A DNA stretch of 64,000 bases from Parvularcula sp. LCG005 (GTDB lineage Bacteria > Pseudomonadota > Alphaproteobacteria > Caulobacterales > Parvularculaceae). The translations under genes were made by a program, and so were the position numbers. Shown piece after piece: positions 6,590-11,719 of the stretch (the first letter of the stretch is position 1; each line of letters begins with the position of its first letter). The notes under the pieces were generated by a model. That model saw only the letters and a program-made list of their open reading frames with translations. It made no database searches and was not told the DNA's origin. The stretch covers positions 2,433,001-2,497,000 of the forward strand of contig NZ_CP136758.1 of the NCBI RefSeq assembly GCF_032930845.1. Direction: 5' to 3'.

Positions 6590-7345
6590 TTACCGAGCTG
6601 CCTTTGCCTTGCGGCGGGCGAACCCGACAACCCCGAGCCCCGCGGCCATCAGCGGCAAAGCGGCTGGGAGGGGTACAGGCGGCAGGACTTCCTCAGTGAT
6701 CCCCGCATAGCGGACATCCGGTTGCGAGAAGTTGTAGAAACCAAATGCGCCGTCTGAGAACGACCCGAACAATTCGAATTCAAGATTGCCATCGACAGTG
6801 ACGCGGATCACCGATGCGGTAAATTCGATAGCGAAGTTGTACTCGGTATTGTCCGCCCACCCGGTACTGCCAAGCGTGTTGGCGCGGGCAAGAAATTCAA
6901 CATTGCCGACGTGGTCCCACTGATCAGCATTCGTATCAGTGCCGCTCGACTGGATGCGGCCGGTGACGCGTGAGATGGACATGCCTCTGTCCCAACCGCC
7001 CTGCGTGCCCTGTTTCCAGTCCACGAGGATGTAGTCGGTGTCGGACAATCCATCGATATCGCCCTGGGTGTAGCCCAGCACAAAACCGATGAAATCATCA
7101 TCAGACGAAGTCTCAACCTTGATGGTCCCGGCAAGGGCTTTACCCTGGCTGCTCTGATTGTTGTGATAGACCGTCGGCGCACTGTTCCGTGTCTGCAGGA
7201 CGCTCGCACTGTCTCCAGCCAAGATCCAATTGCCATTGCCATCTTGAACCCAAGTGGACAAATCGACAGCGACAGGTGCCGCGAAGGCTCCACCGATGAG
7301 CGCACATGCACCCACGGTCAAACCGGTAATTGTCTTTAAAAACAC
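6590..7345 (-). CDS. Secreted protein with VPLPA-type C-terminal sorting tag
   Basis: A 251-residue exported protein. The start is a GTG at 7345 placed six bases after a strong GGGGAGAG; it gives a clean signal peptide (VFLKTITGLTVGACALIGGAFAAP). Upstream in-frame ATGs would add a non-signal tail. The C-terminus reads VPLPAALPLMAAGLGVVGFARRKAKAAR: a Pro-containing motif, a hydrophobic span and a basic tail, the layout of PEP-CTERM/VPLPA-CTERM proteins that are processed by an exosortase or archaeosortase-like protease. The middle resembles a concanavalin-like beta-sandwich (WVQDGNGNW, DNTEYNFAIEF). No exosortase gene lies in this window. A dyad element lies 36-56 bases upstream of its start. 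Confidence 0.85.
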   Translation of the reverse strand: MFLKTITGLTVGACALIGGAFAAPVAVDLSTWVQDGNGNWILAGDSASVLQTRNSAPTVYHNNQSSQGKALAGTIKVETSSDDDFIGFVLGYTQGDIDGLSDTDYILVDWKQGTQGGWDRGMSISRVTGRIQSSGTDTNADQWDHVGNVEFLARANTLGSTGWADNTEYNFAIEFTASVIRVTVDGNLEFELFGSFSDGAFGFYNFSQPDVRYAGITEEVLPPVPLPAALPLMAAGLGVVGFARRKAKAAR

Positions 7346-7380
7346 TATTTGCTCTCCCCTAGAATAAAAGCGCCTCAAAC

Positions 7381-7401
7381 CTAACATTAACGTGTTGTTA
7401 G
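7381..7401. promoter_or_regulatory. Dyad element upstream of the VPLPA-tag gene
   Basis: CTAACA-N9-TGTTAG, a 21-base palindrome in the divergent region between the anchored protein (start 7345) and the Nudix-type regulator (start 7468). It also reads TTAA-CGTGTTG-TTAG, one base away from a full CtrA-type TTAA-N7-TTAA site. A related element lies upstream of the other anchored-protein gene at 23787-23809. The binding protein is unknown. Confidence 0.45.
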
Positions 7402-7467
7402 TCAATGGGTTTTCCCAACGGCGGGATTTCGTGTGACAATCGCTGACGGCGATCATAGACGGCAGAC

Positions 7468-8415
7468 ATGGAACAGCGTCTTCTGATCGGATTGAACGCC
7501 GTCCTGGCGGCTATCAGTGCCGACGGGCCCAAGGTTCTGTGTGTGGAGCGCAAGGGCGGCTGGGGTCTTCCCTTTGGCCAGTTCGACCCGTCGCGGCATC
7601 GCACCTTCGAGATCGGCTTGCGGGACTTCGTCAAACGCCAGGCCTCGCTACCGCTTGGTTACGTCGAACAGCTTTACACGTTCGGCGATATGGGAAGGGA
7701 AAGTCCCCGTCCCAGCATGGCCAATAGCGACCCCTCTGACCGCATCGTATCGATCGGCTATCTGGGACTGTCACCTGAAATGGCGGTTTCCACCCGGGAA
7801 AAGACCGCATGGCGTGACTGGTACGACTATTTCCCGTGGGAGGACTGGCGCGCCGGTGCGCCACCGGCCCTGTCGGAAATCATGACGCCACTGCGCCAGT
7901 GGGCCAACACACCGGAACGCTATGGCCGATTGAAGGCCAGTTTCGGCCTTGATGATATTCTTTGGGAAGAAGAACGGGTGCTTGAGCGCTACGAGCTCAT
8001 GTACGAAGCTGGTCTTGTCGAGGAAGCGGTGCGGGACAATAAACTGTCATCGACCGTCACACTGCCGGCCGGTAGCGGTCAGACCATGATTTCAGACCAT
8101 CGCCGCATTCTTGCCACAGCCATTAGCCGGTTGCGTGGAAAACTACGCTATCGTCCAATAATATTTCAGATGATGCCGGAATTGTTTACCCTAACAGCCC
8201 TTCAGGCGTCGGTTGAATCCGTCCTCGGCTTCGAAGTGCACAAGCAGAATTTCCGGCGGAGTCTTGAGACGGCAAAACTGGTGCAAAAGACTGAAAACAT
8301 TGCTGATACGGGCGGCAGACCAGCCGCGCTATATCGCGCTAGTCGTCTGGCCAGCGAGAGATTCGCCCCTGGGCTTACTTTGCCGCGTCTTCGTGAAGAC
8401 AAGCTACCGTACTAG
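7468..8415 (+). CDS. NadQ/NrtR-type regulator with degenerate Nudix domain
   Basis: A 315-residue protein with an N-terminal Nudix-like domain (residues 5-115, including GWGLPFGQFD and GYVEQLYTFGD) and a C-terminal winged-helix domain (from about 225: MPELFTLTALQASVESVLGFEVHKQNFRR, then GGRPAALYRAS). This layout is that of NAD-sensing repressors NrtR and NadQ. The catalytic Nudix box is lost: the REXXEE core reads RDFVKR at residues 52-57, so it should sense a nucleotide rather than hydrolyse one. nadA-nadB-nadC start 2.2 kb downstream on the same strand, which fits a role in NAD regulation. The spacing between the domains suggests the NadQ (COG4111-like) branch, but that is from memory. An inverted repeat ATCGC-N5-GCGAT lies at 7439-7453, 14 bases before the start. 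Confidence 0.75.
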   Translation: MEQRLLIGLNAVLAAISADGPKVLCVERKGGWGLPFGQFDPSRHRTFEIGLRDFVKRQASLPLGYVEQLYTFGDMGRESPRPSMANSDPSDRIVSIGYLGLSPEMAVSTREKTAWRDWYDYFPWEDWRAGAPPALSEIMTPLRQWANTPERYGRLKASFGLDDILWEEERVLERYELMYEAGLVEEAVRDNKLSSTVTLPAGSGQTMISDHRRILATAISRLRGKLRYRPIIFQMMPELFTLTALQASVESVLGFEVHKQNFRRSLETAKLVQKTENIADTGGRPAALYRASRLASERFAPGLTLPRLREDKLPY

Positions 8416-8540
8416 CATCAATTTCGACGAATAGTTTTACGTTAAATTGAAACTGCTCCCGTACATCACTCTTCAGGAGCCATAGTTCGTATGAACGAGG
8501 GCGGAGTGACTGCCATTCCATGTGGCGTATTGGAGTTAGT

Positions 8541-9017
8541 ATGAAAAAGACTTTGGCAATGTCTGCCGTTTTCGTTGGCGGACTCTCGGGCGTCGCATTT
8601 GCGCAGTCCGATGACGTGATCTTCAACGGGACCATCGCAGATTCCTGCACCGTCGTTGCCGGTTCGGCCGGTACGATTGCTGCCAGCACCGACAGCACTG
8701 TGCTGTCGAGTACAGAAGCAGGCGGTAGCGCAGGTGATGCAGCCGTGACGGCAAACAGCGCGGCCTATCAGGTCACCGTTTCCGCACCGACCGCCTTTGA
8801 CTCGGCGCCTGCTGGCTCCGACACCAACACAACCTTTGCCGCGTCCTACGCCGCAAGTGGTGCGACCACGGCCAGCGGCGTCAATGCCGGCGTCCAGACC
8901 GCCATCAACGCCGGTGAGACAACGATCACTGTCGATGCATCTGCCACCAAAAGCGTCGGCACCTACGCCGCCGGTTCTTACCAGCTGACAACGACCGTGA
9001 CATGCTCAACATCGTAA
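8541..9017 (+). CDS. Secreted pilin-like beta-rich protein, unknown
   Basis: A 158-residue protein beginning at the ATG at 8541 after GGAGT. It has a clear signal peptide (MKKTLAMSAVFVGGLSGVAFAQS) and a mature part rich in Ala, Ser and Thr. There are only two cysteines, one near the mature N-terminus (IADSCTVV) and one four residues from the end (TTVTCSTS), and the sequence alternates polar and hydrophobic residues. That resembles Ig-like fimbrial or spore-coat-U type subunits, but I cannot assign a family. It is the first of three overlapping genes encoding exported proteins, so it is probably the structural subunit of that set. Inference only. Confidence 0.8.
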   Translation: MKKTLAMSAVFVGGLSGVAFAQSDDVIFNGTIADSCTVVAGSAGTIAASTDSTVLSSTEAGGSAGDAAVTANSAAYQVTVSAPTAFDSAPAGSDTNTTFAASYAASGATTASGVNAGVQTAINAGETTITVDASATKSVGTYAAGSYQLTTTVTCSTS

Positions 9018-9397
9018 TTTCTGCACTGAGTGTCTTCTTGCTGACAGGGACTGCGTTCGCGCAGTCTCTGTTGCCCATGAAGGCTGACATCGTCACGTTT
9101 GCAGAACGGGGCAATATCAGCATTACGCTGCAGAATCCCTATGAACGGGCCAAGCGATTCACGCTCGAAGCCTATGACATGGACTGGCAGCCCCTGCCAG
9201 ATATCCAGATGGTTCGCCGTCAGGTTTCTATGGCACCGGGCGGGTCGATCGGTCTTTATTTCTTTGTTCCCCAGCGCGAGGCTGAAGAAGCACGCATGCT
9301 GTTTATCTGCGCGACATCCAACCCGACATTCGGGGCGGGAACGGGCATGAGAGGTCGGGTATGCGGAAAATATCGCGTAGTCTATCGCTCGCTCTAA
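9002..9397 (+). CDS. Single-domain PapD-like periplasmic protein
   Basis: A 131-residue exported protein whose start overlaps the end of the upstream gene by 16 bases, implying translational coupling. Signal peptide: MLNIVISALSVFLLTGTAFAQS. The mature part (ADIVTFAERGNISITLQNP, RFTLEAYDMDW, VSMAPGGSIGLYFFVP) has the strand pattern of the N-terminal Ig domain of pilus assembly chaperones (PapD-like), but the protein is half the size of a chaperone and has a Cys pair near the C-terminus (LFICATS and GRVCGKY). No usher gene is present nearby. A role in folding or holding the neighbouring pilin-like protein is inferred from position. Confidence 0.75.
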   Translation: MLNIVISALSVFLLTGTAFAQSLLPMKADIVTFAERGNISITLQNPYERAKRFTLEAYDMDWQPLPDIQMVRRQVSMAPGGSIGLYFFVPQREAEEARMLFICATSNPTFGAGTGMRGRVCGKYRVVYRSL

Positions 9398-10497
9398 CGC
9401 CTCTGGCGTTCAGCTTTTCAGCGAGTTTTGCGCAGCAGGCGATCGATGCCAATACCGGGCAGCAGATCATCGTGCCGTCGCAAAGCTCCGTCTACAATCA
9501 GAATTCGGTTTTCCTCCCCACTGCCCCTACCGTCGGCGGCCAGGATATTATCCGTGGCGCAGGTGGGGTAAGCTGTCAGTCCGCGGTCGCCTCAGGCGGT
9601 CCGTATGTGGACATGGGCGTCATCGGATCAGAAGACGTCTACGAACGGACCTCCACATCTCTTTACGGCCGGGTCGTCGTCCCCCTGGGCGGCGGCAAGC
9701 GTAAGCGCGTCGACTGTACGAAGCTCTATGAGCTGGAAATGACCCGCCTCAAGATGGAGCTTGAGCTCCTCCGTATGGGATCGATGATGCCGCCAGATCA
9801 GAGTTTTGCTGACAGCGGATATGGCGCACCAGCGCAATCGCAGCCGGCGGCGCCCGCAGCGCGCCCCGCCCCGGCAACCATGGCGCCGCTGCCTACCCCT
9901 GAGCCGCTCGCCAGCGCCGACGATTTTCTTGAAGAAGAGGAACTGGCGCAGCCGATGATGCTCGGCATGCCTGCCGAAGATGCGCCATTGCCGACCCCAG
10001 GTGCTGCGGCAGCAAAACCGCGCGCTCAGGCCGTCACCGCTCTTGCCGCCGCGAAACCAGCACCTGAACCGGTCCGTACCGCGCCGCCTCAGATTGTTGT
10101 GGCCGAGGCGGCTACCAACGCGACCCGTGTCGTGACAGATGCTGCGCCGGTACGCGAACCAGAAGCCATCGCTATCGTCGATGCGCGGCAGGATCCGGTC
10201 GTCCGCCAGTCGTCTTTATTAAACACTCAGTCATTAAGGTTAACCGAGGGTAATGGTGTATACGCCCAGCTCGGCGCCTTCTCGACAGAAAGCCGCGCCT
10301 ATCTGCGTCTCGCCGAAGCCCGCATGGCCCTGGGGTCGCAACAGAACACCGCGTTTGGACGCCACGCGACGGAAATTCGCACGGTGGAACAGACCAGCGG
10401 CGTGATTTACCGCCTCCTTGTCGGACCCATGCCGAAGGAAGAAGCCGACGAGATGTGTCGCAATGTCCCAGACGGCTGTTTCGTGACGGGAAGCTAG
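9361..10497 (+). CDS. Secreted SPOR-domain protein of the three-gene module
   Basis: A 378-residue exported protein whose ATG at 9361 follows AGAGGTCGGG inside the end of the upstream gene (37-base overlap). The signal peptide is followed by a 70-residue region with GGVSCQSA and a VDCTKLYELEMTRLKMELELL segment predicted to be helical or coiled coil. A long low-complexity Ala/Pro-rich linker runs from about 145 to 280. The C-terminal 80 residues (GVYAQLGAFSTESRAYLRLAEARMAL to YRLLVGPM) form a SPOR domain, which binds denuded peptidoglycan at division septa. It may tether the module to the cell wall. The second half of the SPOR domain carries two cysteines. Confidence 0.8.
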   Translation: MRKISRSLSLALTPLAFSFSASFAQQAIDANTGQQIIVPSQSSVYNQNSVFLPTAPTVGGQDIIRGAGGVSCQSAVASGGPYVDMGVIGSEDVYERTSTSLYGRVVVPLGGGKRKRVDCTKLYELEMTRLKMELELLRMGSMMPPDQSFADSGYGAPAQSQPAAPAARPAPATMAPLPTPEPLASADDFLEEEELAQPMMLGMPAEDAPLPTPGAAAAKPRAQAVTALAAAKPAPEPVRTAPPQIVVAEAATNATRVVTDAAPVREPEAIAIVDARQDPVVRQSSLLNTQSLRLTEGNGVYAQLGAFSTESRAYLRLAEARMALGSQQNTAFGRHATEIRTVEQTSGVIYRLLVGPMPKEEADEMCRNVPDGCFVTGS

Positions 10498-10571
10498 AAC
10501 CCCTCGTCCCGCCTCAAATTTGCGCCAAATCCTCCCCTGAGAAATCGATTTGCGTTTTGCTCTTGATGGGC

Positions 10572-10590
10572 ATATGGTGAGCACCCATAT
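10572..10590. promoter_or_regulatory. Candidate operator dyad upstream of nadA
   Basis: ATATGG-N7-CCATAT, a perfect 6-base dyad 32-50 bases before the nadA start. It is nested in a wider inverted pair TTTTGCTC (10555-10562) and GAGCAAAA (10600-10607). Position and symmetry fit a repressor site, and the nearby Nudix-type regulator is the obvious candidate. No copy of the same dyad was seen upstream of that regulator, so the link is inferred. Confidence 0.4.
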
Positions 10591-10621
10591 TCTCTTTATG
10601 AGCAAAAGTGAGGAGGGTCAC

Positions 10622-11719
10622 ATGCCTGCCCACGGATTTGAAGCAGAAGTCCCATTGGCGTTAACGGACGAGGTCCGCGCCAAGACCGATCATCTGTACG
10701 ACCGCGTCGCTAACCTTATTCCGCGTCTGGAATGGGATCTGCACGCCCCGACCATCGCCCGCATCAACGACCTGAAGGTCGAGAAGAATGCGGTGATCCT
10801 GGCGCACAATTACATGACGCCGGATATTTTCTACGCCGTCGGCGACTTCCGCGGCGACAGCCTGCAGCTGGCGAAAGAAGCCGCCGCGACCGACGCCCAG
10901 GTCATCGTCCAGGCGGGCGTTCACTTCATGGCCGAGACGTCAAAGATCCTCTCGCCAGAGAAGACCGTCCTGATCCCGTCGATGGAAGCTGGCTGTTCGC
11001 TCGCCTCCTCTATTACGGGTGCTGACGTTCGGCTGTTGAAACAGCGTTATCCCGGCGTGCCTGTCGTCACCTATGTGAACACGACCGCCGATGTGAAGGC
11101 CGAGACCGACATCTGCTGCACGTCGTCAAACGCTGTGCAGGTGGTCGAGCATATCTGCGCCGAGTGGGGCACCGATCAGGTCATTCTGATCCCGGACCAG
11201 TATCTTGCGCGCAATGTGGCGGCGATGACGGACAAGAAAGTCATCACATGGGCTGGCGCATGCGAAGTGCATGAGCGGTTCACCGCAGAGGACATTCGCG
11301 AAATCCGTGCCGGCAACCCCGGTGTCGTGGTGCTAGCGCACCCCGAGTGCCCCCCCGAGGTGCTGGCCGAAGCAGACTTCGCCGGCTCGACCTCCGCCAT
11401 GTCTGGCTACGTGAAGACCGAGCAGCCCAAGAACGTTGTGCTGATCACAGAGTGTTCGATGTCGGATAATGTGGCGCTGGAAAACCCGGGCGTCGAGTTC
11501 GTCCGCCCCTGCAATTTGTGTCCGCACATGAAGCGCATCACGCTGGAGAATATTCTGCACGCGCTGGAGACCATGACTCACGAAGTGCATGTGGACCCTG
11601 TGATTGCGGAGAAAGCGCGGCTCGCGGTTCAGCGCATGGTGGACCTGCCATTGTCAGGACCCGCCACGAATTTCCGGCCTCATGCCGACCGGGACGTGAT
11701 TGCGATCGAGCATCGCTGA
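10622..11719 (+). CDS. nadA: Quinolinate synthase
   Basis: A 365-residue NadA. The start at 10622 is chosen because GAGGAGGG lies six bases before it; in-frame ATGs further upstream fall in the operator-like region. NadA condenses iminoaspartate with dihydroxyacetone phosphate to quinolinate and carries a 4Fe-4S cluster. Conserved blocks are [22 protein letters not shown] (first cluster Cys), [21 protein letters not shown] and [17 protein letters not shown] (remaining cluster Cys among these). It is first in the nadA-nadB-nadC operon, with nadB one base after its stop. Confidence 0.97.

Follow-up and report, generated by a model that had tools for sequence, protein, structure and literature searches.

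The trio and its locus

The window analyzed here is a stretch of 64,000 nucleotides of the genome of Parvularcula sp. LCG005, which is assembled as one contig and is 99.99% complete. Between a regulator of the NrtR type (Pfam NrtR_WHD) and a row of genes that, by sight, are nadA, nadB, and nadC, there are three genes, A, B, and C, that overlap in open frames by 16 nt (A/B) and 37 nt (B/C) and whose products all have, by eye, signal peptide-like starts (Table 1). No insertion or prophage scar was found at the trio, given its window-like GC content (0.55 to 0.62 for the three genes versus 0.60 for the window) and flanks without any repeat visible by eye. A consensus scan of positions 8380 to 10660 gave no sigma-70-like promoter and five terminator-like sites, against a mean of 1.9 after shuffling. 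On the minus strand, the window codes at 6590 to 7456 for an exported-looking protein that ends, by eye, in a sorting tail of the VPLPA type, with a helix and FARRK after it.

Table 1 Features of the trio (positions in the window) and lipoprotein-like gene that follows C in other loci (positions in each locus)
Feature	Position	Strand	Description
nrtR-nadA interval holding the trio	8416-10621	+	nrtR at 7468-8415; ATG of nadA at 10622, named by sight
Gene A	8541-9017	+	158 aa, exported, probably pilin-like protein; mature Cys C36 and C155
A/B overlap, 16 nt	9002-9017	+	ATG of B overlaps the last Cys codon of A
Gene B	9002-9397	+	131 aa, exported; predicted single PapD-N-type Ig domain; Cys pair C103/C121
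B/C overlap, 37 nt	9361-9397	+
Gene C	9361-10497	+	378 aa, exported; conserved core (ca. residues 45-140), Pro/Ala-rich linker, C-terminal SPOR
Core domain of C	9493-9780	+	Also found in other bacteria, in phages, and on plasmids; PHROG 37374
SPOR domain of C	10252-10476	+	Residues 298-372, accessory; Pfam 21.3 bits
Lipoprotein-like gene after C	L007:5290-5433; L008:5230-5406; L012:5290-5448; L016:5242-5427

Predicted structures and sequence relatives of the three proteins

The AlphaFold2 model of B (28 sequences, eight strands) has a pLDDT of 92.7 and a pTM of 0.80. When this model was compared with the PDB by Foldseek, the top 30 matches were all entries of chaperones of chaperone-usher systems (Caf1M, SfaE, SafB, FaeE, FimC, DraB, and CsuC; best E value 3.7e-6, probability 1.00, TMq 0.60 to 0.72), and such entries made up 47 of the 50 rows among the matches listed; the other three were a ciliary complex, a yeast Epo1-Bem3p entry, and the MSP domain of VAP-A. 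At the sequence level, B by itself gave nothing useful against Pfam, NCBIfam, or the PDB sequences, Pfam PapD_N did not match it at an E value of 10, and its profile found nothing in the PDB (best E 1.6). The hhalign comparison with five E. coli chaperones was not significant either (14.5% with signal peptides and 1.3% without). The B profile does find a two-domain chaperone of P. dongshanensis at an E value of 2.1e-5 (the value of Pfam PapD_N there is 3.4e-10), and hhalign gives 91% for this pair, with the end of the signal peptide lying within the aligned stretch. Mature B scored 25.9 against an alignment of 16 alpha chaperones, one of which (L218) is apparently out of frame, whereas the highest score among 20 column shuffles was 14.4; the probability was 22%, rising to 81% with signal peptides, and it was 48% for mature B against all 22 chaperones. 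Since homology to PapD by sequence only is remote, the claim about the fold rests on the model and the Foldseek matches, together with which the profile link allows us to consider a PapD N-terminal domain (Ig) fold in B as established by prediction. The half-size PapD-like protein of an earlier note on this DNA has, therefore, the Ig fold expected of it. The invariant Cys residues of B, C103 and C121, sit on its two final strands in the model, and we take these strands for the F-G pair. In classical chaperones such as PapD and FimC, it is this pair that donates a strand, and Caf1M reportedly has an F1-G1 disulfide.

The small protein A had also been proposed to be pilin-like, and it probably is, less securely than the fold of B. 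The model (AlphaFold2, 38 sequences) has a pLDDT of 91.7 and a pTM of 0.76 and is all beta, with ten strands, the first at residues 36 to 40 and the last at 152 to 157, and with residues 22 to 35 unpaired. After the signal peptide there are indeed two Cys residues, not a terminal pair as previously described but one toward either end of mature A, the second (C155) at the very C terminus. The first is preceded by the segment VIFNGTI, which resembles the donor strand of pilins. A pattern F-x-G-x-V ahead of the first Cys is found in the A family, at the unpaired stretch of the model, and FimG has VNGKV at the equivalent position (ADVTITVNGKVVAKPC). The sequence link to pilins is weak. Searched against the PDB, the A profile gave weak matches to a subunit-like chain (E 0.022, covering the signal peptide and first strand) and to Caf1 (E about 0.5, over the last strand); hhalign with E. 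coli pilins gave 54.6% where the signal peptide and first strand were aligned but 3.5% for mature A. Neither a Pfam family nor a PHROG matches the A of the window itself. Incidentally, chain a of PDB entry 10ss, present in 14 copies, is named “Ferrous iron transporter B,” yet its start, with a signal peptide and a pilin-like beginning, looks like that of a fimbrial subunit.

By a rough rule applied to open reading frames begun at the first start codon, signal peptides were scored in 219 of 249 A hits, 116 of 179 B hits, and 155 of 182 C hits, and two mature Cys residues in 182 of the 249, 152 of the 179, and 168 of the 182, respectively. Under the same rough rule, the first Cys of A lies 12 to 14 residues past the cleavage site in 146 of the 249 hits and 5 residues past it in 45. 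The second A of Mesorhizobium, the mature form of which starts (by eye) with AIIGTC, fits the latter class and leaves no room for a donor segment. In one plasmid locus (L011:6757-7545), a 262-aa protein with a signal peptide-like start and, by eye, an A-like C-terminal part is encoded between A and B; it has no Pfam match and could be a two-domain subunit of the adhesin type.

Protein C has a core with an invariant C72, a R..DC119..LY motif, and a helix-like stretch. Residues 52 to 128 match phrog_37374 (E 7.4e-8); no Pfam family matches the core, and the profile search of the PDB was not significant (best E 0.52). The C of the window ends in the domain typical of septal peptidoglycan-binding proteins, SPOR, a match that is real but marginal (the Pfam cut-off is 21 bits). 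However, SPOR is carried by only three of the 12 C proteins scanned (those of the window, L018, and L025), so that it appears as an add-on outside the core system; the domain had been correctly recognized before, and the wall anchor it was thought to provide is not a general part of the system. The C of Hellea balneolensis (L022:6020-6137) ends in a copy of the F-G Cys hairpin of B (45% identity over 31 aa, E 5e-9, in a single comparison), and the sequence looks as if a donor hairpin had been grafted onto C.

Distribution and linkage of A, B, and C

The search for relatives took us well beyond the Parvularculales and Caulobacterales, the range within which the earlier note had proposed to look for this gene order and which proved too narrow. 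Using the C of the window as a tblastn query, 23 of 50,697 phage records matched, from Vibrio phages, while the B of the window found none. With a phage C, 191 of these records matched (180 with Vibrio as the host, six Klebsiella, three Erwinia, one Stenotrophomonas, and one Raoultella), along with four of 72,556 plasmids, and the C of a Klebsiella jumbo phage retrieved 35 phage records, in part the same as the earlier ones. In the phages inspected, two small genes stand before the C-matching gene and can be aligned with B and A. When bacterial genomes were scanned with a C alignment, 102 relatives were detected, the best 80 of which were taken, among them those of Parvularcula, Hyphomonadaceae, Hellea, Mesorhizobium, Aminobacter, Nitratireductor, Hyphomicrobiaceae, Sphingomonadales, and Qipengyuania; scans of viral contigs gave 4, 4, 276 (best 80 taken), and 1. 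Altogether, the carriers of the trio comprise Parvularcula, Hyphomonadaceae, Mesorhizobium, sphingomonads, plasmids, Vibrio siphophages, T5-like and jumbo phages, and marine viral contigs. B was present in 8 of 62 genomes at the family level and in at least 2 of 385 in an even draw at the class level, the window's own genome being included in both counts and the latter being a lower bound because at most 11 candidates were scored per genome. Three PHROGs, 25895, 25455, and 37374, match A, B, and C, respectively, of the marine contig L116, and all are labeled as of unknown function; the match of the window's B to phrog_25455 is weak (E 0.061). No description of the trio was found among the titles and abstract openings listed from open-access PMC.

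We collected 183 loci (L001 to L183) through B (L001 to L005) or C (the rest), duplicates and near-identical viral contigs included, and ran HMMs of the three proteins, iterated on these loci, against their open reading frames. A, B, and C were all present in 175 of the 183 loci and always on a single strand (175/175), an arrangement that is not due to chance; the three overlapping exported genes of the earlier note are, thus, a conserved unit. The eight incomplete loci include five at contig ends (L074, L126, L160, L163, and L166), one with no hit (L017), one in which an A-like frame was recognized by eye only (L010), and one of the jumbo phages among L013 to L015, all three of which were B-C-A in an earlier pass. 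The most common order is A-B-C (105 loci), followed by A-B-C-A (61), A-B-C-A-A (5), B-C (4), B-C-A (2), and C alone (2), with one case each of B-A-C-A (an artifact of the frame start), C-A, B-C-A-A, and no hit. Two or three A genes in the patterns A-B-C-A or A-B-C-A-A are, therefore, found in 66 of the 183 loci. The three genes thus stay partners even where their order changes, as in the B-C-A of jumbo phages. The 16-nt overlap between A and B was scored in 69 of the 175 three-gene loci, taking plus-strand loci with A upstream of B and the ATG closest to the stop of A.

Genomic context in phages

In the Vibrio phages vB_VhaS-tm, K251, and pVp-1, the trio is located directly after a large hypothetical gene; in K251 (59 kb), the trio is within the structural region, before the head-tail adaptor and with no annotated lysis genes beside it. 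In the T5-like Vibrio phage pVp-1, the order is A-B-C, a lipoprotein-like gene, a small gene, holin, and endolysin; the tiny lipoprotein-like gene after C, followed by that of a small cytoplasmic-looking protein, is a feature of the Vibrio phages. The trio comes four genes after one of the tail-spike family in L116 and two genes after rIIA/rIIB in the jumbo phage D479, and the C gene of an Erwinia phage is ca. 1.7 kb past a putative tail fibre gene. Annotated structural genes are absent from the 3 to 5 kb shown on either side in the jumbo phages KPN8, D479, and FBKp24; in the last of these, the gene recognized is the one that matches C, and it stands behind an annotated promoter. As the position varies by lineage, the role in phages may not be a single one. 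The placements next to the large hypothetical gene, the tail-spike-family gene, and rIIA/rIIB fit a change in the envelope such as superinfection exclusion.

Marine viral contigs (L112, L116, L139, L170, L180, and L101) have three further conserved neighbors up- and downstream of the trio. X1 is a protein of about 200 aa (SPPPSA..CTVGVSGAVQTQ..NCERLK; PHROG 20531), X2 has about 300 aa (VLPPEAGLEVQG), and X3 is a coiled-coil, membrane-like protein (MAEVEIAGAKIKGGK; MAEFEFGG in L180). Although both have an NC/DC-RL motif, hhalign showed no relationship between C and X1 (1.3% probability).

Chromosomal neighborhood and mobility

Ten loci were compared in the nrtR-nadA region, three of them with nadA outside the flank covered. 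In all seven relatives with both genes, the gap between the aligned ends is only ca. 90 to 310 nt, versus 2.2 kb in the window, and two of the seven (G008 and G019) carry the trio elsewhere in the genome. The neighbors differ between the other bacteria; in Hellea, for example, the trio is found between trpB-like and trpA-like genes (by eye). The close nrtR and nadA of the relatives and the differing neighbors indicate that the three genes move, or are gained and lost, together as a block. The earlier proposal would be refuted if relatives had the genes apart and in different surroundings; they have them together, with only the surroundings differing, and the proposal is not refuted on this point. 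In an unrooted tree of 39 C proteins, which has long branches and a bootstrap that had not settled, a branch (85/93) sets the chromosomal copies to one side, with copies from phages and plasmids beside them. Genes with EAL domains were seen near plasmid copies; in that of V. nigripulchritudo, one overlaps the end of C (L011:8326-9048), and in a Mesorhizobium plasmid locus (L009), there are EAL, GGDEF, and PilZ genes within 8 kb.

Comparison with chaperone-usher and other envelope systems

That no usher accompanies the genes had been noticed before, and this was confirmed at the locus and extended to the whole genome of the window (G000), in which neither the usher (PF00577) nor PapD_N (PF00345) was detected, both being positive in the E. 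coli control. An usher match was found in two of eight trio-bearing genomes searched (G008 and G435) and in none of the other six, some of these genomes being drafts. With no usher in the window's genome and only two of eight carriers having one, the system seems to be independent of the chaperone-usher outlet. In P. dongshanensis (G008:C2:301794-303620), a separate PapD_N chaperone and the usher match are side by side, and the trio is on another contig.

Some parts of the trio are also those of the chaperone-usher pathway. The fold of B is that of the N-terminal domain in PapD/FimC, in the FGL-type Caf1M, and in the archaic CsuC, but these chaperones have two domains, whereas B consists of a single one (about 110 mature residues) and has no adjacent usher and no Pfam PapD_N match. 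We do not file the system as a chaperone-usher pilus because B is not a two-domain chaperone and no usher was found in G000. The curli protein CsgC is also a single Ig domain, and no curlin-like repeats were seen by eye. None of 10 A, B, and C proteins matched the PADLOC models of antiphage defense at an E value of 0.1. With FimG, Caf1, and the SCPU/Csu pilins, A shares the signal peptide, the FxGxV followed by an early Cys, a Caf1-like last strand, and the all-beta model; it differs in the location of its second Cys, in the lack of a Pfam match, and in having B and C as partners, with no usher at all in the window's genome. The DraD/AfaD invasins are pilin-fold subunits, DraD belonging to the family of chaperone/usher fimbrial subunits, that are reported to reach the surface independently of the usher and to have an unusual B-F disulfide (PMC3112383). 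Their likeness to A is one of description. Llp of T5 is a superinfection-exclusion lipoprotein, an envelope protein of a T5-type phage (PMC9586334), and the small lipoprotein-like gene after C in the T5-like pVp-1 recalls it in kind. Llp is a single lipoprotein and A-B-C a set of three proteins.

A putative usherless chaperone-subunit cassette

In our reading, A-B-C is a chaperone-subunit cassette for the Gram-negative envelope, reduced to a minimum and lacking an usher, that has in C an envelope partner of its own, and we would give the whole explanation, phage exclusion included, a probability of roughly 45%. Judging from the predicted structures, donor-strand chaperoning of A by B is likely; fibre formation, anchoring, and, for phages, the role in superinfection exclusion are what we infer. 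By donor-strand complementation, the F-G hairpin of B, held by its Cys pair, would make the Ig fold of A complete. The N-terminal donor segment of A, which is short, could then go to the next A, giving rise to a short fibre, or the one-to-one complex might stay as such. C, made with A and B and often before a second A, would receive A or anchor it in the envelope; a periplasmic structure is as possible as one that crosses the outer membrane. SPOR, gained by C in a few bacteria, would hold it on the peptidoglycan. With the phage cassette, the envelope of an infected cell would be changed, most likely to block a second phage, and a related chromosomal version would have been retained by Alphaproteobacteria. 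We are rather doubtful of a fuller scenario, namely, an undescribed usherless fibre or subunit system by which phages remodel the infected envelope for superinfection exclusion and which one lineage of Alphaproteobacteria adopted, in a few cases with a SPOR tie to the wall.

The absence of an usher from the window's genome would also agree with a periplasmic effector that forms no fibre, i.e., a monomeric A guarded by B and delivered by C to a target in the envelope, perhaps for phage protection or surface remodeling in bacteria. The shortness of the donor-like segment in both classes of A points the same way, but the several A genes per locus look like multiple subunits of one assembly, and we consider such an effector unlikely. 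It is less likely still that A, with the help of B, is placed on the phage particle, for instance as a host-surface adhesin or as decoration beside the tail fibres, with the bacterial copies being domesticated. The location after the large hypothetical gene of Vibrio phages (within the structural region in K251) and shortly past tail-spike or tail fibre genes in L116 and the Erwinia phage would be expected of a virion component. However, virions are built in the cytoplasm, whereas A, B, and C have signal peptide-like starts, and the 3 to 5 kb on either side in the three jumbo phages lack annotated structural genes.

The gene order of pVp-1, leading through the lipoprotein-like gene to holin and endolysin, suggests instead an accessory of lysis, the trio and the product of the small lipoprotein-like gene acting on the outer membrane at the end of infection as spanins do. 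This seems improbable to us in view of K251, where no annotated lysis genes adjoin the trio, and of chromosomal copies, which are common with no phage genes in the neighborhoods inspected. Finally, the resemblance of B to a chaperone and of A to a pilin could mean that the trio is what is left of a chaperone-usher pilus operon after loss of the usher and half of the chaperone, but the same reduced set with a specific C is kept, with intact frames, across phages and bacteria. No usher beside C, as in an intermediate, was noticed in the loci inspected for it, and we give this origin hardly any credit.

To our knowledge, every pathway known to use donor-strand chaperoning has an outer membrane usher and a chaperone of two domains. 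In the usherless cassette that we propose, the chaperone fold has one domain, and its companions in T5-like, siphophage, jumbo, and marine phages and in bacteria are a subunit that is probably pilin-like and a third protein that is new. Three phage protein families labeled as unknown gain in this way joint roles that can be tested, and the question is raised of whether phages might use pilus-type chaperoning on the envelope of the cell that they infect.
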